Shown here piece by piece: positions 11 through 24,293 of a stretch of DNA of 64,000 nt. The stretch lies in NCBI RefSeq assembly GCF_015711475.1, contig NZ_CP065027.1, positions 1,922,001 through 1,986,000 of the forward strand, in the 5' to 3' direction. How positions within the stretch are numbered: the stretch's first letter is position 1; each line of letters opens with the position of its first letter. Both the position numbers and the translations under genes were made by a program. The notes under the pieces were generated by a model, which did not search any database, was not told the DNA's origin, and worked only from the letters and a program-made list of their open reading frames with translations. Source of the DNA: Actinomyces trachealis. Its GTDB lineage: Bacteria > Actinomycetota > Actinomycetes > Actinomycetales > Actinomycetaceae.

Positions 11-856
11 GTGTTGGAAACACTCTCGCTTGAAGAGATCAAAGAGGTGGAACTCGGCATCCTGCGCGAGCTGGACCGCGTGTGCAAGCGCGAGGGCCTG
101 GCCTACTTCCTGGCCTATGGCACCCTCATTGGCGCTCTGCGCCATAAGGGGTTCATCCCCTGGGACGACGACGTGGACGTCTACATGCCCCGGCCTGACT
201 ATGAACGTCTCTACCAGTTAGCTCAAGCTGGGGCCTTGGGCCCGCAGTTCCGGATCGTGAGCTACCGCGACCGCTCCTCGATCTACAGCTTCTTCAAGCT
301 GGTAGACACCCGCACCCGCGCGGAGGAGTCTTTCATCACCGACAAGAACCCCCTGGGACTGTGGGTGGACATCTTCCCGCTGGAGCGTGTGGATATCTCC
401 ACCCCCAGCATCACCAAGGCGAAGCGGCGGGCCTCCAGGCTGGTCTGGTGGCGCTTCCTGGCCTCCACGGACCCGCGCTACGCGACCTCCACCACCGCTA
501 AAGCGGCCAAGTGGTTTATCTACCCCTTCACCAGGCTGATTGACCCGTACCGGGTAGCCCGCAAGACCGATGAGCTCGCCCGCTCGACCAACCTTGCCGA
601 CGGCGTCGCCACTGCGAGCACACGCTATGTTCTGCTGGTCGACGACCACATGGACAAGAACACCATCCGTCCCGATCAGCTCCTGCCAGCACGCCAGGCG
701 TATTTTGAGGGCTACCAGTTCGATGTGCCTACCAAGGCTGAAAGCATTCTGGCCGACTACTACGGCGACTGGCAGCAGGTCCCACCGAAGGAGGACCGTC
801 CACCCTCGCACCTACGCGCAGTCACCTGGGTGCAAGGAGACGCCGATGCCCAGTAG
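11..856 (+). CDS. licD: LicD-family phosphocholine transferase (first copy)
   Basis: LicD enzymes move phosphocholine from CDP-choline (or a related phosphodiester group) onto a sugar of a surface glycopolymer on the cytoplasmic side. The 281-residue product carries the family core near residues 37-58: a YGTLIGALRH segment followed by the metal-binding WDDDVDV acidic motif. The start is GTG at 11 with a GGAAGG ribosome site just upstream; the gene may lie within an operon that begins outside the window. It overlaps the next gene (a GT2 enzyme) by 11 bases, and the flippase follows with another overlap, so the three are probably co-translated. The exact transferred group cannot be read from sequence, but licA, licB and licC homologues lie 4-6 kb away, which favours phosphocholine. 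Confidence 0.85.
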   Translation: MLETLSLEEIKEVELGILRELDRVCKREGLAYFLAYGTLIGALRHKGFIPWDDDVDVYMPRPDYERLYQLAQAGALGPQFRIVSYRDRSSIYSFFKLVDTRTRAEESFITDKNPLGLWVDIFPLERVDISTPSITKAKRRASRLVWWRFLASTDPRYATSTTAKAAKWFIYPFTRLIDPYRVARKTDELARSTNLADGVATASTRYVLLVDDHMDKNTIRPDQLLPARQAYFEGYQFDVPTKAESILADYYGDWQQVPPKEDRPPSHLRAVTWVQGDADAQ

Positions 857-1739
857 CCAAAGGGGGGCCGCCCCTACCGTATGTGTCTTCACCCCCACCT
901 ACGAGCGCGCCTACATCCTGCCCAAGCTTTATGAGAGCCTGCGTTCCCAGACCAGCCAGGACTTCTTCTGGATGGTGGTGGATGACGGATCCACTGACGG
1001 CACAGAAGACCTGGTGCGCTCTTGGATCGATCAGGGCGACCTGCGCATCGACTATGTGCGCACCGCCAACGGCGGCAAGCCTCGTGCCATCAACCTGGGT
1101 GTGGCACGCTGTGAGAGCCCGTTGTTCTTCGTCGTCGATTCAGACGACTGGCTGGTCCCCACCGCGATTGAGCACGTGCTCAAGGTGTGGAGCACCATCG
1201 CAGGCGACGACCGCTACGCAGGCATAGTCGCGCTGCGAGGCACCGACGAAAACACACCAATGGTCACCTGGATGCCTGACGGCGCGAAGGACGTCAAATA
1301 CTGGGACCTCTTTGAGACCATGGGGTTCGCCGGGGACACTTCGCTGATCCACCGCACTGAGGTGTTGCGTAACTATCCTTATGACGTCGCGCCTGGTGAG
1401 TTGTTCATCGCGGAGACCTCCGTCTACTACCGGCTTGATGAGCGCTACGTCATGTTAGCGGACAACACGATCCTGACCATATGCCACTACCTGGACGACG
1501 GATTGACCCATAACTTCGCCGCTAACGCGAAGCGCAGCCCCGTTGGCTACTGGAAGCACAAACGTTACTGTGCCTCGCGTTCCACCACGCTCAGAGGCAA
1601 GTTCCGCGAGACCCTGCTATACTTGGTTGGTTGCAGGCTTGCGGGACAGCGTAGCGCAGTATCAATGGCGCCACACAAGGCGATCGCCGTCCTCTGCTAC
1701 CTGCCCGCGCTGGTCGTGAGGCACACGGTGTTCCGGTGA
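846..1739 (+). CDS. GT2-family glycosyltransferase
   Basis: A 297-residue inverting GT-A glycosyltransferase that probably adds one sugar to the lipid-linked repeat unit later decorated by LicD. The start of the domain reads CVFTPTYERAYILPKLYESL, a typical GT2 nucleotide-binding strand, followed by VVDDGSTDGT and the metal-binding VVDSDD motif near residue 98. ATG at 846 is chosen because it precedes the conserved domain by about 12 residues and overlaps the licD stop; the longer open frame upstream is non-coding. No membrane segments are evident except a weakly hydrophobic C-terminal tail. The sugar donor and acceptor are unknown. Confidence 0.85.
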   Translation: MPSSQRGAAPTVCVFTPTYERAYILPKLYESLRSQTSQDFFWMVVDDGSTDGTEDLVRSWIDQGDLRIDYVRTANGGKPRAINLGVARCESPLFFVVDSDDWLVPTAIEHVLKVWSTIAGDDRYAGIVALRGTDENTPMVTWMPDGAKDVKYWDLFETMGFAGDTSLIHRTEVLRNYPYDVAPGELFIAETSVYYRLDERYVMLADNTILTICHYLDDGLTHNFAANAKRSPVGYWKHKRYCASRSTTLRGKFRETLLYLVGCRLAGQRSAVSMAPHKAIAVLCYLPALVVRHTVFR

Positions 1740-2980
1740 GCGCCCGCGAACAGAGCCCGCAGGCCCTGCCTCTGCGGGTCAACATGGTCTGGAACTCCGT
1801 CGGCTCGATCGGGCGCCTGGTCTGCAACTATCTGGTGACGATCGTCGTGGTCAGGCTCTCTCACGGCTTCGACGCAGCTGGGGCGCTGGCCCTGGCCATG
1901 TCGATCGCCAACCTGGTGACCCCTTTCGCAGACTTCCGCCTGCGAACTCTGCAAGTCACTGACGTCAAGAACGAGCGTAGCTCCGGCAGCTATGTGGGAC
2001 TGCGAGTGCTGACGTCGCTGCTTGCCTTCGTGATCGGCACGGTCTACGCCGTAGCCACTACACGCCTGGACGCGATGCCTGTGATCGTGCTCTACCTCGT
2101 CTACTCCCTGGCCACGAACTTCATCGAGGTCTTCCACGCCATCGACCAGCGCAATCGACGTATGGACTTCATCGGCAAGTCCTACTTGATGCAGGGTGTG
2201 GGGACCCTGGTTGTCTTCTGCCTACTCATCTGGAGTACCAACTCCCTGGAGCTCGCTGTGACGGCGATGGGAGTAGTGACCCTGCTGATCTGCTTTCTTT
2301 ACGACATACCGCGCGCCGCGAGCTTTGAGAGCATCCGGCCGGAGTTCGAACTCGGGCCTGCGGTGGGCGCCCTGGCAAGGCTGTTGCCTTTGGTGATCGC
2401 GCAGGTCTGCTCCAGCGCTGTGCTGGCAATCCCCCGCCAGCACCTGGCCGCAACGTTGGGCACCGCCGCGTTGGGTATCTACTCCTCGGTGGCCTCCCCG
2501 ACGCTGATCGTGCAGATGGGCGCCACCTACGTGTACAGCCCGTTGATGGGTGAGTTCGCAGAGACCTTCTACCAGGACAAGCGCGTAGCCATGCGGCTGC
2601 TACGCAAGACCTTCCTGGCAATCCTTGTGGTGGCGGCCATGACCTCATTACTGCTGCTGGTACTGGGCAAGCCACTGCTGTGGGTCTTGTTTGGCGAGGG
2701 CATCGTGGAGCACGTCTACCTGATCCAACCCGCGATCCTCAGCACGATTATGACGGCACTCGCCTGGTTCATGAACGACCTGCTGCTGACCCTGAGGGAC
2801 TTCAAAGGGAGTTTCATCGGCAACATCACTGCGGCGCTGGTGACGCTCATCGTCTCGCGCATGCTGGTGGACGCTTTTGGCATGAACGGGGTCAGCTGGG
2901 TGGGTGTCGTCTCCTACGGCGTTGCGGTCGCAGTCATGGGAGGTTTCCTGGCCAGGGCGTACCGCCGCCTGGACAGCTAG
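1736..2980 (+). CDS. Polysaccharide flippase (Wzx/MATE-like, TacF-like context)
   Basis: A 414-residue integral membrane protein with about 12 hydrophobic segments, consistent with the oligosaccharide flippase (Wzx/MATE) superfamily that turns lipid-linked repeat units to the outer face. GTG at 1736 overlaps the TGA of the preceding gene by four bases, implying translational coupling. It is the last gene of the licD-GT2-flippase set and converges with the second licD, only 13 bases away. In pneumococcus the teichoic-acid flippase TacF sits beside two licD genes and prefers choline-bearing chains; the arrangement here is similar, but substrate selectivity is only an inference. Confidence 0.8.
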   Translation: MSAREQSPQALPLRVNMVWNSVGSIGRLVCNYLVTIVVVRLSHGFDAAGALALAMSIANLVTPFADFRLRTLQVTDVKNERSSGSYVGLRVLTSLLAFVIGTVYAVATTRLDAMPVIVLYLVYSLATNFIEVFHAIDQRNRRMDFIGKSYLMQGVGTLVVFCLLIWSTNSLELAVTAMGVVTLLICFLYDIPRAASFESIRPEFELGPAVGALARLLPLVIAQVCSSAVLAIPRQHLAATLGTAALGIYSSVASPTLIVQMGATYVYSPLMGEFAETFYQDKRVAMRLLRKTFLAILVVAAMTSLLLLVLGKPLLWVLFGEGIVEHVYLIQPAILSTIMTALAWFMNDLLLTLRDFKGSFIGNITAALVTLIVSRMLVDAFGMNGVSWVGVVSYGVAVAVMGGFLARAYRRLDS

Positions 2981-2993: not shown

Positions 2994-3857
2994 TCAATCC
3001 TGGCTGAAGTCGTGCTTGCCAAAGTCCACGCGCACAGCAGAGTGGTTTACCCGCTCCTCCTCTGGAGGAAGGCTCATGTAGTCCCCGTACCAGCGCGTGA
3101 GCACCGCGTCGAAGGCTCGGGGGATCTCCACCATGATGCCCTCGAAAGGCACCCTTACCGTGGGAAACAGCTCCGACTCCTTGGCGGACCAATGCCGCGG
3201 GGCCTGGGTGGCGTAATCACCCAGCAGTGGTGAGCCTGAGCCCTCGTACTGGCGTGCGGCATGCTCCCACAACCGGTAGAGCTGCGCGGGCTTCACCCGT
3301 GCCAGGTGCAGGCCACCGTGGACGCCGTGGAATACCGCGGACGCGGCTTGCCCCACCAGTCCGTTCAGGCCAGCCTGCGGGGTGGCACTGCCGTGCAGGA
3401 AGAGCATGCGGCCCCACAGCCAGGTGTGTCGGTTCTGGCGCCGGTAGCTGCGAACGTCAACCGGCATGCGGTCCAGGGGGAAGATGTCCACGCCGATCGG
3501 CACCTTGAACTCCCTGCCCTCGGCGTCACCCGGAGTGAACTCGGTGCCTTCTAGCCCCAGCACCGCGAAGGTCTTTGGGTAGTCGGGGTGAGAGCGTGGG
3601 CTCATCAGCACGAACTCGTCTTTCAGCGCCGCTGGCGCCTCACGCAGGAAGCGTTCGTAGTCCTCGCGCCGCATGCAGACGTCTGCGTCGTCGTCCCAGG
3701 GGATGAATCCGCCGTGACGCACCGCGCCGATGGCGGTGCCACCGTAGGCGGCATAGGGCGTACTCAGCTCCTTGCAGACCCGGTCAAACTCAGCGAGCAC
3801 GCGTGTGGTGGCCCGCTGGACCTGGTGGAGCAAGTCACCGTCTTGGTTGCCATTCAT
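2994..3857 (-). CDS. licD: LicD-family phosphocholine transferase (second copy)
   Basis: A 287-residue LicD-family protein. It has the same core as the first copy: AAYGGTAIGAVRHGGF then the metal-binding WDDDADV motif at about residues 37-60, and a VDIFPLDRM segment typical of LicD. The two copies are clearly divergent, so they may decorate different sugars, as LicD1 and LicD2 do in pneumococcal teichoic acid. ATG at 3857 is preceded by an AAAGG ribosome site. It is the last gene of the minus-strand licCA-licB-licD series, although a hairpin at 3891-3921 lies between it and licB. It converges on the flippase gene. Confidence 0.85.
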   Translation of the reverse strand: MNGNQDGDLLHQVQRATTRVLAEFDRVCKELSTPYAAYGGTAIGAVRHGGFIPWDDDADVCMRREDYERFLREAPAALKDEFVLMSPRSHPDYPKTFAVLGLEGTEFTPGDAEGREFKVPIGVDIFPLDRMPVDVRSYRRQNRHTWLWGRMLFLHGSATPQAGLNGLVGQAASAVFHGVHGGLHLARVKPAQLYRLWEHAARQYEGSGSPLLGDYATQAPRHWSAKESELFPTVRVPFEGIMVEIPRAFDAVLTRWYGDYMSLPPEEERVNHSAVRVDFGKHDFSQD

Positions 3858-3996: not shown

Positions 3997-4935
3997 TCAG
4001 GCGGCGTTTGCGGTGCGGGTGAGCTTGAGTTCGCGCCAGTCCGGGGTGGCGGCCAGGACCGTCCCGACGAGCAGCACCAGGCAGCCGACGACCTGCAGGG
4101 GTGTGGGCACGCTGCCTTGCAGCACAAGCGCGAAGATCACGGCCCAGGCGGAGTAGGAGATGTTCAGCGCCATACCGCGGGAGGCACCGATGGATCCAAG
4201 GGCCTTGTAGTAGAAGAGGTAGGAGGTGGTGCCTGCCAGGGCGGCCAGGACCACGACAGCGGTGGCGGGGCTCATGGCTGACTTTAAGGCGAAGCCGAAC
4301 GAGCCAGCCAGCGGGGCGATGACGAACAGGTAGGCCAGGGCAGAGGTCATTTGGCGGATCTGCAGCGCGGTCTCATTGTCAACGGCGTCGTCTCGCATAC
4401 CCCAGGTCAGGACCACCGCCTCAGAGCCCCAGCCGAGCACGCAGGCCAGGGCACCCGCCACACCCAGCAGGGCATTGCCGCTGACCTGGTCGTTGGTGGA
4501 GGACCAGCCGATCGCGATGATGGCGCCAAGCGCCACGAGCAGGGCCACTACCTGGTGAGGGCGCATGCGCTCCTTGAGGAGCACGAAGGCCAGGAAGGTG
4601 CCTACCGCCGGGTAGAAGGTGGAGATGATGGCGGTGTAGGCCGGGCCGATGTTGTTGATGGCCACCAGGTAGCCACTCATGCCCACGGGGCCACCTAGCA
4701 GGGCTCCCAGAGCCACCACCTTGCCTGAGCGGGTGCGCAGGGCGGCGGCGGTGTCTCCCAGGCGGCCGCGTGTGCCCATGTAGACCGCGAGGATCAGGGT
4801 GCTAGCGACGTCGTGGATCAGCGCGCTGGCGATGGGGGCCTGGGTCGCACCGACGAAGGGCACGAGCGCGACTGCCATGGCCAGGATGACTGTGTCCAGG
4901 CCCCAGGTGGCGCCGCTGAGGATTCCGTACTTCAT
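3997..4935 (-). CDS. licB: LicB-like choline permease (DMT/EamA family)
   Basis: A 312-residue protein with ten predicted membrane segments and two EamA halves, the fold of LicB, the high-affinity choline importer of Haemophilus and pneumococcus. Conserved-looking stretches include NNIGPAYTAIISTFYPAVGT in the first half and the LGSIGASRGMALNISYSAW stretch in the second. ATG at 4935 follows an AAAGGA ribosome site. It lies 24 bases after the LicC-LicA fusion gene, so the two are almost certainly one transcript supplying choline to the kinase. EamA transporters are diverse, and the choline assignment depends on both resemblance to LicB and this context. Confidence 0.82.
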   Translation of the reverse strand: MKYGILSGATWGLDTVILAMAVALVPFVGATQAPIASALIHDVASTLILAVYMGTRGRLGDTAAALRTRSGKVVALGALLGGPVGMSGYLVAINNIGPAYTAIISTFYPAVGTFLAFVLLKERMRPHQVVALLVALGAIIAIGWSSTNDQVSGNALLGVAGALACVLGWGSEAVVLTWGMRDDAVDNETALQIRQMTSALAYLFVIAPLAGSFGFALKSAMSPATAVVVLAALAGTTSYLFYYKALGSIGASRGMALNISYSAWAVIFALVLQGSVPTPLQVVGCLVLLVGTVLAATPDWRELKLTRTANAA

Positions 4936-4959: not shown

Positions 4960-6777
4960 TCAGGAGCGGGGGGTGGGGAGTAAGAGCTCGGCGCCGTCAT
5001 AGGCGGCCAGGACTGCGTCAATGTAGTCGGCGGCGTGGCGGTAGTAGATGAACAGCCACTCGCCGATATCGTCGCCCTCGGCCTCCTTGAGAAGGGACCA
5101 GACGTACCAGCACCAGCCAGCGAAGACGACGTAGGCCCAGAAGTGGCGGCGCTCAGCCTCCGTGGGCGTGCGACCGAAGTAGTAGCTCATCGCACGGTCA
5201 GCGTCTGTGGGGGACATTTGGGCACAGACCACCATGGTGCCGAAGTCACTGCCGATGTCGGACATTCCGGCGTACTCCCAGTCGATGAGGTCCAGGTGCC
5301 CCTGAGTGTCCACCAGGAAGTTGAGGGGGAAGAAGTCGTTGTGGCTGGGGCCGACCGGGAAGCCGTCGGCGTCGGCGAGTTCTTTGAGGCGGAGTACCTT
5401 GGTGTGCAGCTCGTCGTAGCCGGGCACGTCGATGGGGCCGTGCTCCTTGAGCAGGGTCTCGTACTTGAGTCCCTCGTCTACGAAGTCGAAGCTGCGGTCC
5501 AGGGTCTGCCCGGACTCGTGGAGCTTGCGGCCCATGCGCATGGCGCGTTCCATCTCGGCGGGCACGGTTGGGTCCAGGTTGCGGGTCTGGGGGATGAAAC
5601 GGGAGATCTTCCAGCCGGTCTTGGGGTCACCTTTCAGGAAGGTGCGGTCGAGCCCCAGGTCCCCAGCCAGCTTGAGGGCCGCGAATTCGGCTTTGCGGTC
5701 CACGATCTTGTCCGTGCCGATGCCGGGGTGGCGGTAGACGTACTCCTGGTCGCCCACGCTGAAGTGGCAGGAAAGGTTGGTGATGCCCTGCTTGAGGGGG
5801 TAGAACTCGCCAATGTCTGACTTGGAGCAGCCCAGGGCACTGGTGATGTGGTCAAAGACCTCAGAATCGACGTTCTCCATGAAGGCCGGGTCGAAGCTGC
5901 GGATCTCGTCCACGGAGTCGAACTCGTTGATTACGCCCTTGGGGTACTTGCGGATGACCATGCTCAGTTCTTTGGCGTGGTCCAGGTAGATGGACTCCCA
6001 GAGCTTCGGGGCGGTCTCGGGCAGGTGGTAGACGCTCTCCAGGATCTGGCGGAACCGGGTGGAGAAGGCGTGGTCAAAGTAGACGTGGCCGAGCATGGTC
6101 CAGGCGTCTGCGCCGCCGACGGTGGCGCCGGTGATGCGGCCACCGGGGCCGGTCTTGATGCACCACTCCTCGGTGGGGCCCTCCACGTACTGGGCGGAGT
6201 AGTAGGCCTGGTAGACGTGGGACTCGAAGGGGTTCTCCGTGAGGTAGTCGTCGGAGGAGCACACGTAGGTGTTGCCCAGCTGCTCGCGCACTAGCCACAG
6301 GGAGCCGTTGTTATTGCGGTTCAGGTAGTCGTCGTTGACGATGATGCGCACACCGAATCTGTCCGCCAGGTAGAAGAAGTACTCCTTCTTGTAACCGACG
6401 ACGACGGTGATGTCCTTGATCCCGGCCGCCTGGAGCTGGCTGATCTGGCGCTCCACCAGCACCTCCCCACGTACCCGCAGCGTGCCTTTGGGTCGCTCAT
6501 AGGAGATGGGGGCGAAGCGCCGGGACAGGCCTGCCGCCATGATGACGGCGTTCTCCACGCGGTAGGGCTCCAGGGCGGCCTGGCCAGAAGCGGTGAGCTG
6601 GCGCCCGGCGATGTACCCCAGGGCCTCGCATTCGCGCACCGCGGTGTTCACGGCCCCCAGGCTCATGCCGGTGCGCTCTCCGATCTGACGCTGGGTGAGG
6701 TCTGAGGCGTCTCGCAGCAGGGCGTAGAGGACGTCGAACTGGCGCTTGGTAAGGGAGGGGGCCATGATCACCACCAT
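4960..6777 (-). CDS. licCA: Winged-helix/LicC/LicA fusion: phosphocholine cytidylyltransferase and choline kinase
   Basis: A 605-residue three-part protein. Residues about 5-70 form a MarR-type winged helix (TKRQFDVLYALL, TQRQIGERTGMSLGAVNTAV). Residues about 77-310 are a nucleotidyltransferase like LicC, opening AVIMAAGLSRRFAPISYERP with PKG as the substrate lysine motif and an SSDDY metal site. Residues about 330-600 resemble LicA choline kinase, with the catalytic SHNDFFPLNFL near residue 480 and the metal-binding IDWEYAG near 497. Together they would convert choline to phosphocholine and then CDP-choline. ATG at 6777 is used; ATG at 6765, after GGTGGTG, is also possible. The fused winged helix suggests feedback on transcription, and an inverted-repeat region lies just upstream (6779-6842). 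Confidence 0.85.
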   Translation of the reverse strand: MVVIMAPSLTKRQFDVLYALLRDASDLTQRQIGERTGMSLGAVNTAVRECEALGYIAGRQLTASGQAALEPYRVENAVIMAAGLSRRFAPISYERPKGTLRVRGEVLVERQISQLQAAGIKDITVVVGYKKEYFFYLADRFGVRIIVNDDYLNRNNNGSLWLVREQLGNTYVCSSDDYLTENPFESHVYQAYYSAQYVEGPTEEWCIKTGPGGRITGATVGGADAWTMLGHVYFDHAFSTRFRQILESVYHLPETAPKLWESIYLDHAKELSMVIRKYPKGVINEFDSVDEIRSFDPAFMENVDSEVFDHITSALGCSKSDIGEFYPLKQGITNLSCHFSVGDQEYVYRHPGIGTDKIVDRKAEFAALKLAGDLGLDRTFLKGDPKTGWKISRFIPQTRNLDPTVPAEMERAMRMGRKLHESGQTLDRSFDFVDEGLKYETLLKEHGPIDVPGYDELHTKVLRLKELADADGFPVGPSHNDFFPLNFLVDTQGHLDLIDWEYAGMSDIGSDFGTMVVCAQMSPTDADRAMSYYFGRTPTEAERRHFWAYVVFAGWCWYVWSLLKEAEGDDIGEWLFIYYRHAADYIDAVLAAYDGAELLLPTPRS

Positions 6778-6778: not shown

Positions 6779-6842
6779 TGTTCAGGCTCGGATCACTTCC
6801 GAGCATGTTCGAGATTAGCGCATCCCGAACAATTCATGAACA
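6779..6842. promoter_or_regulatory. Candidate operator of the lic operon
   Basis: Immediately upstream of licCA there are nested inverted repeats. TGTTC half-sites at 6779-6783 and 6806-6810 are mirrored by GAACA at 6827-6831 and 6838-6842. The inner pair extends to TGTTCG-N14-CGAACA. A separate 7-bp perfect stem, GCTCGGA / TCCGAGC with a 5-base spacer, lies at 6786-6804, and TTCATGAA at 6833-6840 is itself palindromic. Such symmetry is typical of a dimeric winged-helix operator; the N-terminal domain of LicCA is the obvious candidate ligand. This is an inference from spacing only. Confidence 0.5.
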
Positions 6843-6928: not shown

Positions 6929-8470
6929 TCAGGCGGTGACGGCAGGATCCTCCAATCGGGCTGGCAAACCGGACCCCTCCGAAGCAGACACCCCGCGGCG
7001 GACCAGCCACAGGCCAGCGATGACCGCAATCGGAAAAGCTATCGAACCAACAATCCAAACACCCATGGGCGAGATTGGAATATTTCGCCACCAGGTAACA
7101 TTCAGGTTCAGGTTCTCGATCAGCGCCGCCACAGGATCGTCATAACCGTGCACATACCGGTAGAGAATCGTACGCAGGGTCAGGGAGTGGATCAGCCCGG
7201 CGAAGATGACCACAAGCACCACCTGCGGCCGCGAGACCCTGAATTCGCGCCCATCAGAGAAGAACCAAACCATGTAGACCACAGCAAGCAAAGGAAGCTG
7301 ATAGCGTCCATGGTAGTACTGGAGTCCTTCCCAGTGGTTCTGCAGTGCAACCACAAACGGGATGCCAATTAGCGCACCGACTAGAATCGCGACCGAGACG
7401 ATCTTTCGCAAGGAAACCTCTTGCGCCCCAAAGGCTATCGCCATGCCGACCATCGCGAGGACAGTGACCGTAATCGCATCACCAAACGGCACATCACCCG
7501 AGCCGGCTCCCCACGTGTGCCCATACAACTCCCCCACAAACGTCGGAATGGAGAGGATGCACTTGCCCACGGCGTACGCCACTGAGTGCGCAGGAGTTAT
7601 TTTAAGGATATTGCCGCTTTGATGGGCCTGCCCGGTTCCGAGCATCACGATCACACCTACGACGCTGAGCACACCACCGATACCGAGCGGCCATAAGTCC
7701 CGCTTACCCCAGGGCACGCATCCAAGCACCCCAAGGGTCACCACCAGCACGAAGAACGAGGCGTCCGCACGACTAAGGAAACAAAGCAAGGCCCCCAGAG
7801 CCGCGAAGACCAGCAGAAGCCACCTGCGACGCCCAGTCACTTGGGTTGCACCAAGGAAAGCGGCCGCATAGGTCATCACACCCGTGAGGGCCCATCCACT
7901 TGGATTGACCGAGGCCACGTAATATACCCCCATGGGAACCCAGGCTATGAGGAGCGCCAAAGCGAATCCTTGCCGCAAGCGCGACGGCAGCAGCACACTT
8001 ACGCCACCTAGCAGAGACAGACTGATTAAGAGATTCACCACCCTGATGACCATCACGGACCGGTCTACGTCCTGGCCTATGAGGTGGTGATGGAGCTGGT
8101 AGTAGCCATACGGATAGTTACCGTCATCGTAACGATTGCTGTACACGAGCTCGGAGTCAGACAATGACAGTGTGCACTCTGCCGTCTTACCAGAGTTACG
8201 CGCAAAGCATGGGTCACGCGGAGCTATCTTGGCAGGAACCAGAATCTCCTTCTCGCCATCAACGAACCTCGTTTGACATCCTGATGAGTCAATGGGTCGA
8301 GGACACCAGATGGAGGCAAGGTGATACGTCTCGTCAGCAGTTCCGCCAGTCGGCGAAGCAAGAGCCCAAGCTATTCCGGTGACTAACAAGGCAAGCACTG
8401 CGACAACGCCGAGAGCCCGACGGACCAGGGCGCCACTCATGAGCGTTTCCGCGCGCCCCATCCCGCTCAC
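6929..8470 (-). CDS. DUF2142-family membrane protein
   Basis: A 513-residue multipass membrane protein with an N-terminal membrane anchor followed by an extracytoplasmic segment (residues about 40-130) containing TADETYHLASIWCP, then roughly ten membrane helices. DUF2142 proteins are GT-C-like and occur in polysaccharide loci, where they probably transfer sugars from polyprenyl-phosphate donors outside the membrane; no activity is proven for this one. GTG at 8470 overlaps the stop of the upstream RmlC-RmlD gene by four bases. ATG codons 3 and 10 residues downstream are alternative starts. A short GCCCC-TACC-GGGGC hairpin at 6891-6904 lies after the gene. Confidence 0.8.
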   Translation of the reverse strand: MSGMGRAETLMSGALVRRALGVVAVLALLVTGIAWALASPTGGTADETYHLASIWCPRPIDSSGCQTRFVDGEKEILVPAKIAPRDPCFARNSGKTAECTLSLSDSELVYSNRYDDGNYPYGYYQLHHHLIGQDVDRSVMVIRVVNLLISLSLLGGVSVLLPSRLRQGFALALLIAWVPMGVYYVASVNPSGWALTGVMTYAAAFLGATQVTGRRRWLLLVFAALGALLCFLSRADASFFVLVVTLGVLGCVPWGKRDLWPLGIGGVLSVVGVIVMLGTGQAHQSGNILKITPAHSVAYAVGKCILSIPTFVGELYGHTWGAGSGDVPFGDAITVTVLAMVGMAIAFGAQEVSLRKIVSVAILVGALIGIPFVVALQNHWEGLQYYHGRYQLPLLAVVYMVWFFSDGREFRVSRPQVVLVVIFAGLIHSLTLRTILYRYVHGYDDPVAALIENLNLNVTWWRNIPISPMGVWIVGSIAFPIAVIAGLWLVRRGVSASEGSGLPARLEDPAVTA

Positions 8471-14159: not shown

Positions 14160-14162
14160 CTG

Positions 14163-15380: not shown

Positions 15381-15386
15381 GCTGAC

Positions 15387-16253: not shown

Positions 16254-16256
16254 GCA

Positions 16257-17360
16257 TTACACCTCCAGGTTCTTGTCAATCCAGTCGCACAGGCGGCTGA
16301 TGCCCTCCACGACACTGACCTGTGGTTCCCATCCCAGCTCGGCGCGGGCGGCGCTGGTGTCAGCCCAGGCAGCGCGCACGTCGCCGTCGCGGAACTGGCC
16401 GGTCACGTGAGGCTCTGGGGCGCCGTAGCGCTGGGCGATCGCCTGGGCGATGTCCATGATGGTGGTGCGCTCCCCCAGGCCGATATCGTAGGGCTCGATC
16501 TGGGCGCCGGAGTGCAGGGCCCCGGCCACGATGGCGGAGGCGACGTCGTCGATGAAGACGAAGTCACGGATGATCTGCCCGTCTTCGTACACGGGGATGG
16601 ACTTGCCCTGCTTGGCCAGGCGCACGAACAGGGAAACGATGCCGGTGTAGGGGTTGATGAGGGACTGGCCAGGGCCATAAACGTTCTGCAGGCGGAAAAG
16701 CACTGGGGTGATTCCGAAGGAGCCACACCAGGAGGCAACGAGGTTCTCCTGGCAGAACTTGGTGGCGGCGTAGACGTTGGCTGGGGTCGCCTTGACGCGG
16801 CTGGACTGTTGGGCCGTGGGGGTAAGGCCGGGGAAGTCCCACTGGCCCGCCTCCAGCATGGCGTGGGTGCGCTGACCGGGATAGTTGGCCAGCCCCTGGG
16901 CGTCCACCCACAGGCCTTCGCCGTAGGTGGCGCGGGAGGAGGCCAGGACGATGCGCTTCGGCATGGCCTCGTGGCGCACCAGGGCATCCAGCATCTGGGT
17001 GGTGCCGACGACGTTGACCTGGGCGTGGCGGGTGGCCTCCGTAAGAGACTGGCCCGTGCCGGTCTCTGCGGCTAGGTGGATGATGATGTCGGGGCGGACG
17101 GTGTTGAGGAGTTGATCCCAGTCCTGGGCACTAGTGATGTCACCGACGTGCAGCTCAACGCGTGGGTCGAGTGCTGCCGGGCGCTCCTGGGTGGCGTGGA
17201 TCTGCGGGTGCAGGTTGTCCAGGGCCACGACCTTGTCGAAGGCGTCGGCCAGGCCGGTGGAGACCGCGCAGCCGATGAAGCCTGCGCCGCCGGTTACCAG
17301 ACAGGTACGCACTTCGGCGGGGTGGCTGTTCATTCCCTGCGGCTTGAGCTGATCGACCAC
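16257..17360 (-). CDS. SDR sugar epimerase, dTDP-L-rhamnose 4-epimerase-like
   Basis: A 367-residue extended short-chain dehydrogenase with [11 protein letters not shown] (NAD binding), IIIHLAAETGTGQS and the catalytic YAATK. The segment ASSRATYGEGLW resembles dTDP-L-rhamnose 4-epimerases (WbiB/Tll type) that make dTDP-6-deoxy-L-talose; UDP-glucose 4-epimerase is the alternative. GTG at 17360 is preferred to an upstream start because AAAGGAGAG lies eight bases before it; ATG at 17333 is a further option. It sits in the operon between the acyltransferase and the ABC permease. 6-Deoxytalose is a reported cell-wall sugar in some Actinomyces, which fits. Confidence 0.72.
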   Translation of the reverse strand: MVDQLKPQGMNSHPAEVRTCLVTGGAGFIGCAVSTGLADAFDKVVALDNLHPQIHATQERPAALDPRVELHVGDITSAQDWDQLLNTVRPDIIIHLAAETGTGQSLTEATRHAQVNVVGTTQMLDALVRHEAMPKRIVLASSRATYGEGLWVDAQGLANYPGQRTHAMLEAGQWDFPGLTPTAQQSSRVKATPANVYAATKFCQENLVASWCGSFGITPVLFRLQNVYGPGQSLINPYTGIVSLFVRLAKQGKSIPVYEDGQIIRDFVFIDDVASAIVAGALHSGAQIEPYDIGLGERTTIMDIAQAIAQRYGAPEPHVTGQFRDGDVRAAWADTSAARAELGWEPQVSVVEGISRLCDWIDKNLEV

Positions 17361-17380
17361 GTTGAAAACTCTCCTTTGGG

Positions 17381-18481
17381 TCACTTGGCACCGCGCTCGA
17401 GCTCGGAGACCTCTGGTCTCCACCACTGACCTGCGAAGGCTGACTTAAACCCGCTGACTATGTTGCCTGTCAGCTTGGGCAAGGCAACGGCTAGCAGCAC
17501 AACGATCACGCAGATGAAGGCGAACATCATGTACTTCTGAACCGGGTAGAACGTTGATGTATCCATCGTTGAGAACACTTGGTAGATCACCACGTGGTGC
17601 ACGAGGAAGATCGGGTAGGAGTACTTCGCAATGAATGAGACTAGCGATCTGACCGGGCCGATTGCCACCCATCTTCCTACGACGACCAGTACCAGGAACG
17701 CAGCTATGCCTACAGCCGTGGTTGCCAGGTCCTCAGGTATTTGGGTGGGAAACTGGGCAGACACCAGCAGCATCGCGATTGCAGGTATCACCACTGCCCA
17801 GTGGACCTGCTTCACGTATTTGACGAACAACATTCCGAAGACCAACTCCGGAAGCCTGGTCGACATGATGATCGCCGCCGGATAGTCTGGGTGCGAGCGG
17901 AAGAACCACAAACTGGCCGCATACAGGGCCATCACGATCGCCACTGTCGGCACCGGATACCGCTCAACTCCCCAGAGCAGGAGCGGGAAAAGCAGATAAA
18001 ACAGGAGGATAAACCCCAGGAACCACTCGCCCAGCAGGTAGGCGGTCCGGACGTGGAAGTTCGCCATGTAACCGTCACAACCGAGCAGAGTCCAGATCAG
18101 GGAACGCGTCGGCGCGGTGTTCGGAGGAAATCCGCGCCGAACCACAAAGAAAAATCCCGTGGCCAAAATCCAGGCGGTCCAGAACATCGGGTAAATGCTC
18201 TGGAAACGCTTCAAGTAGAAGCGCTTGAGATCCAGCTTGCCCTTTCCCCCGTACGTCAAGGTCAGGGCCGCTCCCGAGATGATCAGGAACAGTGACACAC
18301 CCAGGTCGCCCACATAAATGCCGAACGGCGTGTTGGTCAGCAAGTAGCCGCCGCCGGAGAAGTAGGGATTGTTGAAGTGCGTCAGGACAATCAGGACCGT
18401 GGCCAGGGCACGGATCAGGTCTAGATAGAAGACTCTTGCACGCTTGGGAGCGGCAGCGGTTACAGACTGAGAATGGCTCAC
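17381..18481 (-). CDS. Membrane acyltransferase (acyltransferase family 3)
   Basis: A 366-residue protein with about ten membrane helices and the family start motif FYLDLIRALATVLIVLTHF at residues about 19-37, where Arg and His are the conserved OafA/OatA-type residues. These enzymes O-acylate surface sugars, most often with acetyl groups. No extracellular SGNH domain is attached. It overlaps the rgpF stop by four bases and precedes the epimerase gene by 20 bases, so it probably modifies the exported rhamnan-type chain. Confidence 0.85.
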   Translation of the reverse strand: MSHSQSVTAAAPKRARVFYLDLIRALATVLIVLTHFNNPYFSGGGYLLTNTPFGIYVGDLGVSLFLIISGAALTLTYGGKGKLDLKRFYLKRFQSIYPMFWTAWILATGFFFVVRRGFPPNTAPTRSLIWTLLGCDGYMANFHVRTAYLLGEWFLGFILLFYLLFPLLLWGVERYPVPTVAIVMALYAASLWFFRSHPDYPAAIIMSTRLPELVFGMLFVKYVKQVHWAVVIPAIAMLLVSAQFPTQIPEDLATTAVGIAAFLVLVVVGRWVAIGPVRSLVSFIAKYSYPIFLVHHVVIYQVFSTMDTSTFYPVQKYMMFAFICVIVVLLAVALPKLTGNIVSGFKSAFAGQWWRPEVSELERGAK

Positions 18482-20376
18482 CTGACAACCTTACGAGCCG
18501 CGCCGTAAAGGGACTGCAGGGCCGGGTGGAAGCGGGCAGGGACCCTACGCTTGACCACGCGCTTCACGCCGCGAACGAGCTCCCTCTTAGCGCTTACCTC
18601 CCCCAGACGCTCCCCCATGCGCCCAACCATTTCAGGTTGCTTGCCCAACCAGCCCAGGCGGTGATAGATCTCCCAGGTGTACTCACGGGTGTAGTAAGCC
18701 AGGGAAGTCAGCTCGATACGGGCGTAACGGTCGGAGAAAAGCCAACCCATGAAGTAGCCGGAGCCCTGTGCCACATAGCCATACGCGCGCTCAATCGCGT
18801 GGAGGATGGTGCCGTCATTATTGTTGGGCTCGGGCGGAAAGTCGCTCCACTGCCAGTCATAGTCGAAGAGTGGTTTGAGGGCCTTGGGACGGAACCAGAA
18901 CATGGTGCCCAGCGGTGCGATGGGCTCTTTCGAGTAGTGCAGTGGGACGCGGATTCCCAGCTCTGCGAGCAGGTGCTTGGTCTGCTCATAGTTGGGCCCC
19001 CAGGAGACCGTGTAGACCGGGAAGTACTCGGCGTGGTTGGGCGGGGTAGGCATGAGCATGCCCAACCGTGGCTCCTGGTCAAACTGGGCGATAACGTTCT
19101 GCACGAAGGCCGGAGTCGGTAGCAGGTTCTCAAAGCACTTGAGGGCAAAGCCCTCACCGATGGACATCGGATAGAGCTGTGTGACCTTCTTGTCGTGCAC
19201 GAAGCAGACCAGGTCATAGTCCATGATGACGTCCTTGACACCGACGAGCAGGGCGGAGACGTCGCGTCCGCGGTTCTCGATCAGGCGGACATCCACGTTG
19301 TAAGGCAGGTCCTGGCACGCGTTCCAAACAGTCTGCGCCTTCTCCTCCGAACCCACGGTGAGGTAGACGTCGCAGCCCTCTGGCATGGAGCGGATATAGC
19401 CCAGGGTGGAGCTCAGCAGGTCCATGTAGTACAGGTGGGCAACGAGGGCGACCTTCTGCTGCTTGGGCTTCCTGGCAACAGCCTCCGTAGGCAGGACATA
19501 GGTCAAGTTTAGGTTCCTGACGACGTCTGTCATGTTCATGGAGCGAGTGACATTGTCCCAGATCAGGTTGGTATCGAAATCCGTGTGATCGCGCAGATAC
19601 TCGTAAAGGTCCTGGGTGGCGTTGCCGATACTCTGGTACAGGTTGTCACCAAGGTTGTGAAAGAAGGAACGGCGCTTGAAGATCGGGCAGCGCTTCTCCT
19701 CGATCAGCTTCTTGGGGGCGAACAGAACCGGAGAGAACGAGTACCCCTCCAGGTCCTCAGTGTTGACATATACGTCGGAGATAAATCCCAGCCGCTCGAA
19801 GCGCTGGGTGAATGGTGCCTCATGCATTCCCACCGACTCTTCATAGCCTTTGATCATCGGCACGTTGTCCCAGTAGTCCTGGAAAGCCTGGGAGGAGACC
19901 AGGGACTTGCGGTAGGCATGGAAGTGGGACTGCAGGTGGCGAGGTATATACCCCTCGGGAAGAGTCCCGAAGGGGTCGAAGTTGACCTGGTGGAACCAGG
20001 TGATGCCCCAGAAGTCGATGTCCCGCTTGCCCATCTCCGTGTACATCTCCACGAAGGGGTACACCGGCCCCATGATGGTGGCGTTGAACAGGACTACCTC
20101 GTCAAACTCACAGAGCTTGTCCCAGCCGTAGGACTCCATCGCGGTCTTGTAGGCCCACACATCTAGGCCCACGTTCTCCCGCACGATGATCTTGTCCGTG
20201 AAGGCTGTCAGCTTGCGGTAGCTGTTGGCGGTGAGCAGCCCGTTGACCACGACGGTCAGCTCAGTCAGGTTCTTGACCATGTCGGCGAGCATGGTCTCTA
20301 CGTAGGAGTCGACTACCCCGTCGCCGTCGTAGAAGAAGAAGATGCCGAGGCGTCTCGGAGCGTCGCCGAGGATCAT
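18478..20376 (-). CDS. Rhamnan synthesis protein F family (RgpF)
   Basis: A 632-residue RgpF-family protein. The N-terminal half has LGIFFFYDGDGVVDSYV, the ENVGLDVWAYKTAM motif and LFNATIMGPVYP; the second half repeats the theme with NRGRDVSALLVGVKDV, FVHDKKV and FRPKALKPL. In streptococci RgpF participates in rhamnose-glucose polysaccharide assembly as a glycosyltransferase. The two related halves suggest two active sites. ATG at 20376 opens the operon rgpF-acyltransferase-epimerase-permease-ATPase, with GGTCCC upstream rather than a strong ribosome site. The polymer is inferred to be rhamnose-rich. Confidence 0.87.
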   Translation of the reverse strand: MILGDAPRRLGIFFFYDGDGVVDSYVETMLADMVKNLTELTVVVNGLLTANSYRKLTAFTDKIIVRENVGLDVWAYKTAMESYGWDKLCEFDEVVLFNATIMGPVYPFVEMYTEMGKRDIDFWGITWFHQVNFDPFGTLPEGYIPRHLQSHFHAYRKSLVSSQAFQDYWDNVPMIKGYEESVGMHEAPFTQRFERLGFISDVYVNTEDLEGYSFSPVLFAPKKLIEEKRCPIFKRRSFFHNLGDNLYQSIGNATQDLYEYLRDHTDFDTNLIWDNVTRSMNMTDVVRNLNLTYVLPTEAVARKPKQQKVALVAHLYYMDLLSSTLGYIRSMPEGCDVYLTVGSEEKAQTVWNACQDLPYNVDVRLIENRGRDVSALLVGVKDVIMDYDLVCFVHDKKVTQLYPMSIGEGFALKCFENLLPTPAFVQNVIAQFDQEPRLGMLMPTPPNHAEYFPVYTVSWGPNYEQTKHLLAELGIRVPLHYSKEPIAPLGTMFWFRPKALKPLFDYDWQWSDFPPEPNNNDGTILHAIERAYGYVAQGSGYFMGWLFSDRYARIELTSLAYYTREYTWEIYHRLGWLGKQPEMVGRMGERLGEVSAKRELVRGVKRVVKRRVPARFHPALQSLYGAARKVVR

Positions 20377-20427
20377 GGGGGTCCCTTCGTGACTGTGCTA
20401 GTTAGGGAAGCTAAGGTGCAGGGGTGC

Positions 20428-21270
20428 TCAGCGCTGGTCTGCGGCCATGATGGAGCGGATCTTGGTAGCGTCCCCCCACGCTCCAGGCGAGTCGTAGGGA
20501 CGGTCCGGGAAAGCGCCGTACTCCAGGCAAATGTCCAGATCGTGCTCCTTGATGTAGGACTCGACGCGCTGGGCCAGAGTCATAGGCTCACCAGTACAGG
20601 CGTTGATGACGCCGGTAACGGCGTCCTGGTCCACGATGGCAGCGATCTGGGCAGCCAGTCCGTCCACTGAGATGAAGTCGTACTGGTTCTTGCCGGTGGT
20701 GAAGGGGAAGGTTTTCTTGCCTTCCTCTGCGGCGGCCAGCAGCTTGGAGAAGATCGAGTTGCCGAACTTGTCATCACCCACGATGTAGTAGGCGCGAATC
20801 CACTGGAGGATCGCGCCGTTCTGGGAGGCTGCTAGCTCAGCGATGCCACGTAGCGCATTCTTGGAGATGCCGTACAGGGAGGCGGGCTTGCAGGGGCTGT
20901 CCTCAGTGATCGCACCCTCCCAGTAGCCGACCTCGTGCATGGTGCCCATGACAGCCAGGTGCTTAAGGCCACCGGTGTAGAGGTTCTCGATCAGGTGGTA
21001 GTGCTTGGCCAGGTCGTCAACGTGTGCGGGCGAGTTGTGCTTGAAGCCGTCGCGCCACGCCATGTGGACGACGACGTCAGGCCGCCCCATCTGCTCGTAG
21101 ATGTCTGCGTCCCCCGAGAACAAGTTGACGGAAAGCCTTTCAGCACGTGGGTCAACGCCGTCGAGACGCAGGTCCAGGGCCTTGACCGTCAGCCCCCGCT
21201 CTAGCAGAGCCATGACGACGTGACGGCCGATGTAACCACCGGCTCCGGTGACCAGAACACTTTTGCCCAT
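20428..21270 (-). CDS. Extended SDR, NAD-dependent sugar epimerase/reductase
   Basis: A 280-residue extended SDR with KSVLVTGAGGYIGRHVVMAL at the NAD site, DVVVHMAWRDGF and the catalytic YGISK near residue 133. It lacks the signature pieces of GalE or RmlB, so the sugar is not assignable; a 4-keto-reductase acting on a dTDP-deoxysugar is plausible next to rgpF. If so it might substitute for the damaged RmlD half at 8467-9636. ATG at 21270 is preceded by a TAACAT box eight bases upstream and no clear ribosome site. The gene ends 51 bases before rgpF and may lead that operon. Confidence 0.7.
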   Translation of the reverse strand: MGKSVLVTGAGGYIGRHVVMALLERGLTVKALDLRLDGVDPRAERLSVNLFSGDADIYEQMGRPDVVVHMAWRDGFKHNSPAHVDDLAKHYHLIENLYTGGLKHLAVMGTMHEVGYWEGAITEDSPCKPASLYGISKNALRGIAELAASQNGAILQWIRAYYIVGDDKFGNSIFSKLLAAAEEGKKTFPFTTGKNQYDFISVDGLAAQIAAIVDQDAVTGVINACTGEPMTLAQRVESYIKEHDLDICLEYGAFPDRPYDSPGAWGDATKIRSIMAADQR

Positions 21271-21377: not shown

Positions 21378-24293
21378 TCAGCCGAAGTACTGCTGGATCA
21401 GCGAGACCAGGTCGCGGCCGTAACCGCGGGCAGCGGCCCAGCCAGTACGGGCCGGGTTCTCCTGGATGCCCAGGTGCTCCACGTACCGCGCCCCACCTTT
21501 GCGCACGTAGGTGAAGCGAGGGTCTACAACTGGGTGCGCGAGACCGGCCACGGTGGCACCGGGGTCGCCATAGGCTCGCAGGTGCTGGGCCTGAGCCCGC
21601 AGGCCGGTACGCACGTCGGGGAAGCTGTTGCCCGACGCCCCTCCTCCTACAGCGCCGATGCCACCGAAGTTGTTCTGCTGGATGCGTACGTCCCCGCCGA
21701 AACGCAGCCACCCGGTTTCCTTTACCACCTGGGCGAAGAGCAGCTCCGGGCTCACCCCTTCAGCCACAGCCTCCTCGTACACGATAGTGAAGAACTCTGC
21801 GGGACTGGACGCTCCGGCAGGCCCCAAGGCATAGGTGGGATAGCTGCCGCCTCGTGCCGCGTAGGCGGCAGTCATCTTGCCCACCAACACCTGCTTGCTG
21901 GCGCTGGGAGCGGCCATCACCTTGTGCAGACCATTGCCGTGAGCCTGCAGCACGGTGCCGCTGTTTGAGGCAGCCGCGTTACCCCCTTGGTTACCGGCAG
22001 GCGCCGAGGTGTAGCCCAGCCAGGCGCCCGTGCTGCTGAACTGGGACCACTGGCCCTCCGCGAGAACGACGCCGGTAGCCATATTCCCCCGGCCAGGGGT
22101 CAGCCAGTACCAGGAGCCTGCATGTTTGAGCCAGCCGGTGCTCATCGCCCCGCTTGCCGGGCTGAGGTAGTACCAGGAGCGACCGTCTTTAAGCCAGCCG
22201 GTAGCCATCTGGCCAGACCCCGGACGCAGGTAGTACCAGGAACCACCATCTTTAAACCACCCCATGCTCATGGCACCGCGCTCAGGACTGAGGTAGTACC
22301 ACGCACCGCCGTCTTTAAACCAGCCCGTGTTCATGGCCCCGCTTGCCGGGCTGAGGTAGTACCACGCACCGTCGTCTTTAAGCCAGCCGGTAGCCATCTG
22401 GCCAGACCCCGGACGCAGGTAGTACCAGGAGCCGCCGTCTTTAAACCACCCCGTGCTCATGGCCCCCGTGCGCGGCTCAAGGTAGAACCAACCGTTGCCG
22501 TCCTTGACCCAGCCGGTCCGCAGGTTCCCGTTGGTCCGGTCCAGGTAGTACCAGTTGCCTCCCTCAGCGAGCCAGCCGGTAGACATCTCACCTAAGGCCG
22601 AGAAGTGGAACCAGCTAGAGCCGATTAACTGCCAACCGGTCAGCTTTGTCCGGCCATCGGAGCCGACGTAGTACCACGTGCTGCCCCTGCGGTTCCAGCC
22701 CGCAGCCAGTCCGCTGCCAGCTGTTCCTGGGTTGGAGCTATTTCGGCTGGCACCGGTTCCGCCTGAGGACATGGACGCCTGCGCGATCTGGCGGATCTGC
22801 CCCAGCTTGGAATAGCCGCGCTCACCAGGGCAGGCGGTGTAACCGACGTCGCGGTGCCCGATGATGACAGGCAGGTCTACTGACTGGCCCGCCCAGTACC
22901 GCTCGGTGGCCCTGATCGCCAGCGGTGCGGTGGCGTTAGCGTCAGAAATGCCTGCTCGGTTCAGGAACCATCCGGCCACCTGGCCGACCTTTTCAAGTTG
23001 GATGGAAGTTGGCTCGACGCTTGAGTAGTCACCCATCATGGAGATACCTATCGAACCGGTGTTGACACCCCGGGCATGCCCACCGACAGCCATCTTGCCA
23101 GGAGCTGCGGCCAGGGTGCCGTGGCGCCCCTCAAAGACCTGCCCATACTTGTCAACCAGGATGTTGTAGCCGATGTCGCCCCAGCCAAGGGTTTGCGAGT
23201 GGTAGTAGTAGATGCCACGCACGATCGAGGCGGACTGGTCGGCCGTGTAGTTGTTGGAACCGGCAGTGTGGTGCACGACCACGTGCTTTGCGGGCGCGTA
23301 CACGGTGTCCCATTCCATAAGGCCCTCATCAGCCCCCCAGTCGGCACGAGTGTTGATGTCCACTGGCAAGCCACTGGCTCCCACGACCGCACGCAGAAGC
23401 GTGCTGGTGCTCAGACCGACGGCGGCGCCGCCACTGGCGCCAGCCAGCAGCCCACCCGAGGCCACGCTCGCGCTGGCTGCGCCTGCGGTACTGCCGTCAG
23501 AAGACGCCGTCGGCTGGTCTTCCTCAGCAGAGGTCTTGGCCTTATCGGAGACCGTCTCCAGGGGTTCTTCCTCCTCTACGGCGGTCTTGCTTGCCGCGAC
23601 TGTGGGCAGGTCCGCGCTCTGCTTGGCCTTCTCACCCTCGGGGCGGGCAGGAACGAGCACTAGGTGCAGGCCCTTGGGCAGGTTTTGCAGCTCCGCGGCA
23701 GAGCGCAGCACCACGCTGACCTGCACGGCGTCGGAACCGGCGGTCACGATCTCCTCAGTCCCGCGTGCTGAGCTGCCATCTGGGCCCGTTGAGGCGTCAA
23801 CCTCATTGCGGAACCACTTGGACCAGGTCCCACGCTCACGCACTCGTAGGAAGACCTGCGCTCCTTCAGGCAGCTGCATACCGTCATTCCAGGCAAAGCC
23901 AGCAACCATGAAGTCCTCCACCATCATGGGCTTGGTGAGCAAGGTGGCGTCTGCCTCCGGGTCGACTGGAGCCCCGTTCGCCGGGCCCGCTAGGGCAAGA
24001 TGTAGACGGGGGCCGAGCCGCGGTGAGACAGCCGTTCCGCCGCTGCTTGAGGCTGGCGCCTGCGCCTCGCTCTCCTGGACCGCCTCCTTCTGCGCGGTCC
24101 CGAGTCCCGCCTTGGCGATCTCCGTCGTCGTGCCGCTGGAGTCTATGAGGGTCAACAGCTGCACCGGCGCCGGTTTGTCTGAGTTCGGCCGTACCGCCGC
24201 CCAGGCCTGCGCGCCCGTGGATGGCTGCGCCAAACCAGCGGCACAGACCAACGACAGTGTTGCAAAGGAGATAACTGCCGTCTTCAGGTTCAT
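21378..24293 (-). CDS. Secreted amidase-glucosaminidase with choline-binding-type repeats
   Basis: A 971-residue cell-wall hydrolase. Residues 1-32 form a signal peptide ending near AQAWA. Residues about 310-495 are a peptidoglycan-recognition type amidase with zinc ligands in VVVHHTAG and GHRDVGYTACPG, predicted to cut the MurNAc-L-Ala bond. Residues about 530-760 are some ten 20-21-residue repeats of the pattern TGW-KDGGSWYYL-GAM, the CW_binding/choline-binding fold of pneumococcal LytA. Residues about 803-971 are a glucosaminidase domain (LLFAQVVKETGW, QNNFGGIG). GAAGGA precedes ATG 24293. With the lic locus nearby, anchoring to phosphocholine polymer is likely, though not proven; the repeats might bind other ligands. 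Confidence 0.85.
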   Translation of the reverse strand: MNLKTAVISFATLSLVCAAGLAQPSTGAQAWAAVRPNSDKPAPVQLLTLIDSSGTTTEIAKAGLGTAQKEAVQESEAQAPASSSGGTAVSPRLGPRLHLALAGPANGAPVDPEADATLLTKPMMVEDFMVAGFAWNDGMQLPEGAQVFLRVRERGTWSKWFRNEVDASTGPDGSSARGTEEIVTAGSDAVQVSVVLRSAAELQNLPKGLHLVLVPARPEGEKAKQSADLPTVAASKTAVEEEEPLETVSDKAKTSAEEDQPTASSDGSTAGAASASVASGGLLAGASGGAAVGLSTSTLLRAVVGASGLPVDINTRADWGADEGLMEWDTVYAPAKHVVVHHTAGSNNYTADQSASIVRGIYYYHSQTLGWGDIGYNILVDKYGQVFEGRHGTLAAAPGKMAVGGHARGVNTGSIGISMMGDYSSVEPTSIQLEKVGQVAGWFLNRAGISDANATAPLAIRATERYWAGQSVDLPVIIGHRDVGYTACPGERGYSKLGQIRQIAQASMSSGGTGASRNSSNPGTAGSGLAAGWNRRGSTWYYVGSDGRTKLTGWQLIGSSWFHFSALGEMSTGWLAEGGNWYYLDRTNGNLRTGWVKDGNGWFYLEPRTGAMSTGWFKDGGSWYYLRPGSGQMATGWLKDDGAWYYLSPASGAMNTGWFKDGGAWYYLSPERGAMSMGWFKDGGSWYYLRPGSGQMATGWLKDGRSWYYLSPASGAMSTGWLKHAGSWYWLTPGRGNMATGVVLAEGQWSQFSSTGAWLGYTSAPAGNQGGNAAASNSGTVLQAHGNGLHKVMAAPSASKQVLVGKMTAAYAARGGSYPTYALGPAGASSPAEFFTIVYEEAVAEGVSPELLFAQVVKETGWLRFGGDVRIQQNNFGGIGAVGGGASGNSFPDVRTGLRAQAQHLRAYGDPGATVAGLAHPVVDPRFTYVRKGGARYVEHLGIQENPARTGWAAARGYGRDLVSLIQQYFG
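22012..22690 (-). repeat. Tandem 60-63-bp repeats encoding choline-binding modules
   Basis: About ten direct repeats of 60-63 bases sit inside the amidase gene. Some units are nearly identical in DNA and two encode the same GGSWYYLRPGSGQMATGW module three units apart, so the array could gain or lose units by recombination. Aromatic W-YY positions that line choline sites in such repeats are kept in most units; the first two and the last are divergent. Confidence 0.8.

Follow-up and report, generated by a model that had tools for sequence, protein, structure and literature searches.

A winged helix fused to LicC–LicA, with a conserved candidate operator, points to a probable self-regulating phosphocholine enzyme in Actinomyces trachealis and its relatives

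A cluster of lic genes in Actinomyces trachealis raises the question of how phosphocholine decoration is built, read and controlled in an actinobacterium. The cluster lies in a stretch of 64,000 nucleotides (the window), bases 1922001–1986000 of a single 2.53-Mb contig (NZ_CP065027.1), and its nearest named relatives by LicC–LicA similarity, as in a tree of these proteins, are Actinomyces species. An initial annotation of the window described two LicD genes around a glycosyltransferase and a flippase, a LicB-like permease and a LicC–LicA fusion, with a secreted amidase–glucosaminidase carrying about ten choline-type repeats some 15 kb away. Domain and fold matches bear out this inventory, the hydrolase having ten repeats and a degenerate eleventh at a spacing of 14.6 kb from the lic genes. 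A further domain had been overlooked: Pfam identifies an N-terminal winged helix in the LicC–LicA fusion. We consider it likely that an enzyme which regulates itself in the manner of NadR or BirA governs the phosphocholine decoration of a lipid-linked glycan, to which hydrolases would be targeted.

In NadR and BirA, a helix-turn-helix domain is fused to the enzyme or enzymes of the regulated pathway, and NadR also joins an adenylyltransferase to a kinase. The A. trachealis protein differs from them in its enzymes, in having choline in place of NAD or biotin, and in that its DNA binding is predicted. It shares with them a helix-turn-helix within the enzyme chain and, on sequence evidence, a conserved candidate operator at its own promoter, found in 75 of 81 loci. 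The fusion is 605 residues long. The winged-helix part of the structural model has helices at residues 11–23, 29–36, 40–52 and 63–72, and the recognition-helix region SLGxVN is kept in both bacterial classes, Actinomycetes and Coriobacteriia, in an alignment of 39 of the 81 sequences (locus L089, with a stop in its match, was left out of alignment and tree). Second LicC–LicA or LicC copies stand beside the first in two loci (L030, 3240–5015 and 6721–7398; L041, 6829–8604); the second LicC–LicA copies of both have no winged-helix match in Pfam.

The inverted repeat upstream of the fusion gene was first seen in the window and 29 named loci, and was then counted in the window and 80 further loci. 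With at most one mismatch, TGTTCA-N-TGAACA occurs with a spacing of 25 in 41 loci, 24 in 15 and 26 in 8, and in none at 22 or 23; 20 composition shuffles gave such a repeat on average 0 to 0.1 times. The core, GTTC-N26/27/28-GAAC, was sought within 300 bp upstream. Its 75 occurrences compare with 0.9 on average and at most 4 in 200 shuffles, and with 1–6 of 81 loci for other spacings. The same core precedes 45 of 908 other open reading frames (ORFs) of at least 250 residues in these loci, and was found in 24 of 1467 random stretches. All 30 loci of the Actinomycetaceae group have the site (consensus GTTCA...TA...TcGAACA), as do 45 of 51 in Coriobacteriia. A third GAAC follows 21–25 bases on in 24 of the 30 Actinomycetaceae-group loci (0.7 expected), whilst Coriobacteriia sites are often doubled, L066 having a series with GAACGTTC junctions. 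The fusion proteins of the 81 loci differ by up to 46% from that of the window, and the operator spacing is still kept despite this divergence. Genes, three-domain fusion, site, site conservation and site neighbours are computed features of the model.

The arms of the site lie about 31 bp apart around a likely −10 element, placed by eye and from the group consensus, an arrangement as would be expected of a repressor. The LicC–LicA protein would act as its own repressor, its winged helix binding the GTTC/GAAC half-sites that flank the −10 element, and the fusion enzyme would tune the import and activation of choline in response to choline, phosphocholine or CDP-choline. What we infer in this model is the choline chemistry, the acceptor, the ligand of the repeats, DNA binding, the effector and repression.

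A separate regulator could instead read the inverted repeat, choline decoration and hydrolase targeting holding whilst the fused winged helix has some other role. Binding of the fusion to its site is deduced from sequence, and MarR-type choline-responsive repressors do exist as free proteins. In Bacillus, according to the available part of one account, GbsR and OpcR place a MarR-type winged helix over choline uptake genes, and choline induces GbsR (PMC7396694). These proteins differ from the fusion in being free-standing, tied to glycine betaine synthesis and not joined to choline enzymes. A further, small set of 40 copies, hand-picked for divergence and divided by hand according to helix status, bears on the point. 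The site was found at 19 of 29 copies with a winged helix, and at none of five genomes whose sole copy lacks or has lost it (Fisher 0.011). All but one of the 29 (18 of the 19 sites) are outside the first 81 loci. G800, with a match from residue 68, was counted as lacking the helix; left out of the five were G156, a copy with a degenerate helix (its match starts at residue 43) that has no site, and five helix-less accessory copies, of which G354 has a degenerate N-terminal stretch rather than none. The ten winged-helix copies without the core (G195, G196, G205, G208, G172, G076, G576, G408, G796 and G066b) count in favour of a separate regulator and against self-regulation. Set against this, sole copies without the helix lack the site, site and helix occur together in two classes, and in L047 a second site lies upstream of a second winged helix–LicC gene. 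A separate regulator thus seems unlikely to us.

Further observations weigh against regulation by the fusion itself. Two of the five helix-less accessory copies do have the site (G739 and G748), both upstream of a full copy as in L041. The core is missing from six of the 81 LicC–LicA genes; a site stands at the head of the probable operon in L041 and L059, and none was found there in L072, L077, L083 and L084. Moreover, the 81 loci are related to one another, including four near-identical Collinsella and five Schaalia odontolytica-like loci, so that the counts are not independent events, and no consensus sigma-70 promoter scored in 6700–6960. Finally, the motif by itself is not specific across genomes. 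A strict match occurs in 144 of 213 family genomes; in the A. trachealis genome only one of two strict and one of eight loose matches is at lic, none lies before licD or choline-repeat genes, and the eight loose matches compare with five in a backward control. Its specificity is positional only. A genome-wide motif count was rejected as evidence for a regulon, lic-negative genomes being among those with a strict match.

Other genes that carry the site extend the picture. Of the 45 other ORFs, 23 share the LicC–LicA promoter region divergently (tallied by hand), amongst them choline-repeat genes in four Collinsella (10 repeats), Adlercreutzia faecimuris (6) and C. provencensis (8). The remaining 22 are free-standing. 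In seven the arms are good and the gene that follows relates to choline or to transport; we take the other 15, which have poorer arms or lie within coding sequence and include three licD, one licB and one LicC, to be chance. Allowing one mismatch brings in further sites, upstream of licB (L046), of a choline kinase (L059) and of a second LicC–LicA (L030). Behind a second operator, Olsenella-type loci have an ABC importer (SBP_bac_6, ATPase and permease, complete in L044), a winged helix–LicC without kinase, or both. The next solved match of the kinase-less protein after LicC is a PntC-type nucleotidyl transferase (6pd1). PntC-AEPT (6pd1/6pd2) differs in being fused to a transaminase and, by its PDB title, phosphonate-specific, with no winged helix in that title. 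These genes possibly serve uptake of a ready-made phospho- or phosphono-compound. In some relatives the winged helix may also act at promoters of licB, second licC copies, an ABC importer and choline-repeat genes.

The fusion appears to have a history that crosses classes. In a quick tree of 80 fusions, rooted at the midpoint for drawing only, the window and 28 loci come out as a single clade of the Actinomycetaceae group (100) within Coriobacteriia, and Arcanobacterium sp. S3PF19 groups with an Atopobium (99). This pattern suggests that helix and operator passed jointly from class to class. Two records, named Xylanimonas cellulosilytica 352_XCEL (L036) and Sanguibacter keddieii 250_SKED (L037), carry Schaalia odontolytica-like loci and fall among these in the tree; they are probably mislabelled or contaminated. 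A broader proposal, towards which we lean, is that winged helix–LicC–LicA is a trifunctional, NadR-like repressor of a GTTC-N26/27/28-GAAC phosphocholine regulon (licB, licC/licA copies, importers, licD and choline-binding proteins) which senses choline or CDP-choline, and that the self-regulated module moved with its operator between Coriobacteriia and Actinomycetaceae.

What the enzymes would make can be read from their closest solved relatives. The LicB, LicC and LicA parts each find a LicB, LicC or LicA as best solved match, and the features of the Lic-1 pathway are present: a LicA kinase with catalytic and choline-pocket residues, a LicC cytidylyltransferase, a LicB permease and a LicD transferase. 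Compared by eye with the choline-kinase residues given in the available part of PMC4364537, T29, D176, N181, D194, E196, Y197, W251 and W254 are kept and Y268 is replaced by W. One position tells against the proposed chemistry, since the rim residue Glu213, which contacts the charge of choline, aligns by eye with Cys518. At position 520 the 39-sequence alignment has a consensus Glu and the window protein a Gln, so that the Glu213/Cys518 alignment may be shifted. LicB would import choline, the LicA domain phosphorylate it and the LicC domain make CDP-choline.

The nearest known system is that of Streptococcus pneumoniae, with lic1/lic2 and LytA, which likewise has LicA, LicB, LicC and LicD functions, a MOP-type flippase and an amidase with choline-type repeats (PMC4364537 and PMC13385700, the latter describing the TacF flippase, in the parts available). 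The A. trachealis system differs in joining LicC, LicA and a winged helix in one protein, and in an amidase which also carries a glucosaminidase. Its flippase differs too. The model has the MOP-superfamily fold with about 12 long helices and is closest to WzxE among the 50 structure matches listed, where TacF is absent; searched by sequence, alone or as a profile (the query with 20 of its 27 flippase matches), it matched no solved structure at E 1. The initial annotation had drawn a parallel with pneumococcal teichoic acid, and this part needs amending: with LicD-1 grouped with a glycosyltransferase and a Wzx-type flippase, the acceptor is more probably an oligosaccharide linked to undecaprenyl, and it need not be a teichoic acid of the pneumococcal type. 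The rhamnan may be less favoured as acceptor than the LicD-1-linked glycan, since the rhamnan cluster is served by an ABC exporter of its own, Wzm/Wzt, and LicD-1 adjoins the glycosyltransferase and flippase. Two LicD enzymes would move phosphocholine onto the oligosaccharide, which the adjoining glycosyltransferase would help to make and the Wzx-type flippase would flip.

The hydrolase consists of a PGRP-like amidase (Amidase_2), the GW..W repeats and a C-terminal glucosaminidase, with a signal peptide judged by eye. Its repeats, at about residues 529–770, match Choline_bind_3 at 1.9e-41 and follow TGW-KD-G-WYYL--GAM, a pattern of the choline type, as Pfam also has it. Three more repeat genes lie in the same genome (C1:1.675, 2.060 and 2.061 Mb), none near lic. 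All four proteins may dock to surface phosphocholine.

Do repeats and lic genes go together elsewhere? Family and second class were taken as Actinomycetaceae and Coriobacteriia from the named loci. Among 213 Actinomycetaceae genomes searched, Choline_bind_3 was found in 59, LicC–LicA (E 1e-20) in 74 and LicD in 79. Setting aside four partial or distant matches, and counting G007 as LicC–LicA positive though its matches are two pieces, 54 genomes have both, 5 repeats only, 16 lic only and 138 neither (Fisher 5e-30, as for the tests below with kinship ignored). The genus itself has 27 with both, none with repeats only, 4 with lic only and 18 with neither (6e-10). The corresponding counts for a sample of 246 Coriobacteriia genomes are 49, 18, 28 and 151 (3e-17). 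Across 396 genomes sampled evenly over the phylum, 18 have LicC–LicA at E 1e-60; apart from the A. trachealis genome, these are 17 genomes from two families of the second class. Repeats and lic genes are thus closely paired in the family and more loosely so in Coriobacteriia. The co-occurrence check that the initial annotation had proposed for licD and repeat genes, made here with LicC–LicA, holds in the family (54/59), imperfectly, and less so in Coriobacteriia (49/67).

The exceptions weigh against the proposed reading and lend something to another, in which the group that LicD transfers is some other phospho-group and the repeats, like CW repeats elsewhere, have a glycan as ligand. Both families, LicD and CW, are broad. 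All five family exceptions are from one genus, one a 70%-complete genome and four lic-negative with a repeat-bearing sialidase; none has a LicC or LicA match at 1e-8. One repeat region was fetched from each of the four, one of which also has a second repeat copy beside a run of N. In Coriobacteriia, 18 of 67 repeat-positive genomes are without LicC–LicA, 17 of them with no LicC or LicA match at 1e-8 and one with a kinase-region match; some of these repeats must therefore serve another ligand, or choline made by others. The best repeats of these genomes are further from the canonical form (median log10 E −9.5 against −13.5; Mann–Whitney 2e-4, partly confounded by repeat number), which, with the solved LicB, LicC and LicA matches and the choline-type repeats of the hydrolase, makes a different ligand in A. 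trachealis quite improbable. Repeat decay in the lic-negative genomes was set aside as too weak, one clade being one event: the sialidase has three W-[YF]-[YFW] motifs in L099–L102 and, in lic-positive relatives L103–L111, four in 8/9 and three in 1/9, the ratio of repeat-domain to catalytic divergence being 4.25 across groups and 3.2 within the lic-positive group.

It might also be asked whether the lic genes and the hydrolase are two unrelated things 15 kb apart, the hydrolase binding choline of a host or of another bacterium. Rhamnan genes fill the interval, and the genome's other repeat genes are remote from lic. We regard this as very unlikely given the co-occurrence (54/59 in the family, 27/27 in the genus), a repeat match within about 27 kb of LicC–LicA in at least 12 of 27 genus genomes, A. 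trachealis included (coordinates compared by hand), and the repeat genes which share the LicC–LicA promoter region in five Collinsella loci and one Adlercreutzia locus. The earlier proposal that the organism builds its own choline-decorated polymer and targets an autolysin to it gains from these counts, tempered by the five family and 18 Coriobacteriia exceptions. Coordinates are collected in Table 1; the gene content of the rhamnose-polysaccharide cluster varies among the relatives compared.

Table 1. Features of the window and of compared loci (positions are those of the window unless a locus is named)
Feature	Position or locus	Strand	Basis or remark
LicD-1, phosphocholine (LicD-family) transferase, GTG start	11..856	+	Pfam LicD 2.6e-43; W-DDD-D motif; start context
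Family-2 glycosyltransferase	850..1739 (start approximate; ORF open from 570)	+	Pfam Glycos_transf_2 9.8e-22
Wzx-type MOP flippase	1736..2980	+	
LicD-2 transferase, convergent with LicD-1/glycosyltransferase/flippase	2994..3857	-	Pfam LicD 2.4e-32
LicB choline permease (DMT family)	3997..4935	-	PDB 7b0k LicB, E 5.1e-34 over residues 2-293
Winged helix (~9-72), LicC cytidylyltransferase (~73-300), LicA choline kinase (~304-595)	4960..6777	-	Start ATG 6777 or ATG 6765
Candidate operator TGTTCA-N25-CGAACA upstream of fusion gene	6806..6842	-	Putative -10 TAATCT at 6817-6812, by eye
Third half-site GAAC, N23 after right arm, adjoining first possible start codon	6780..6783	-	Group count 24/30 loci
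Rhamnose-polysaccharide cluster: RmlC-RmlD fusion, glycosyltransferases, Wzm/Wzt, RgpF, acyltransferase	6929..21270		Between lic genes and hydrolase
Secreted amidase-glucosaminidase, ten choline-binding-type repeats and a degenerate one	21378..24293	-	Domain matches and sequence reading
Three further choline-repeat proteins of the same genome	L093 5842-7188; L093 4153-5370; L092 2739-4304		One with L,D-transpeptidase-like end, by eye
Regions of four lic-negative genomes with choline-repeat sialidase	L094-L097, L099-L102		
Divergent partners on the LicC-LicA promoter region	Choline-repeat genes L053-L056, L058, L070; licB-like L082, L085, L088, L091; licD L023, L024, L048		Other ten varied
Seven good free-standing sites	Second LicC-LicA L041; licB-like L078, L080; ABC importer L042, L043, L044; winged helix-LicC without kinase L047		
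Olsenella-type loci, genes behind second operator	L042 11930-12991; L044 11946-16311; L047 12059-12964		

The pathway itself is not new. The complete system in an actinobacterium that the initial annotation describes has a precedent: PMC10434233, in the part available, reports Lic-1 genes for A. gerencseriae and A. viscosus, where phosphocholine is evidenced solely by recognition with TEPC-15. That part makes no mention of a winged helix, an operator or Actinomyces choline-binding repeats. A. gerencseriae DSM 6844 (L017) resembles the window in having the fusion, licB, licD and the operator. In the literature searched, which covers subscription journals thinly, no report was found of a winged helix–LicC–LicA regulator, its site or choline-repeat systems in these bacteria. 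Two things are added here: across the family the lic genes pair with choline-type repeats, and, of greater weight, the fusion is likely a self-regulating enzyme with a conserved candidate operator. Together these make testable how choline-scavenging bacteria match uptake to surface decoration, through a one-protein switch with a defined candidate operator. They also make testable whether, beyond the Firmicutes, choline-anchored wall proteins form a system in actinobacteria of the mouth and gut, among them Actinomyces, Schaalia, Olsenella and Collinsella.

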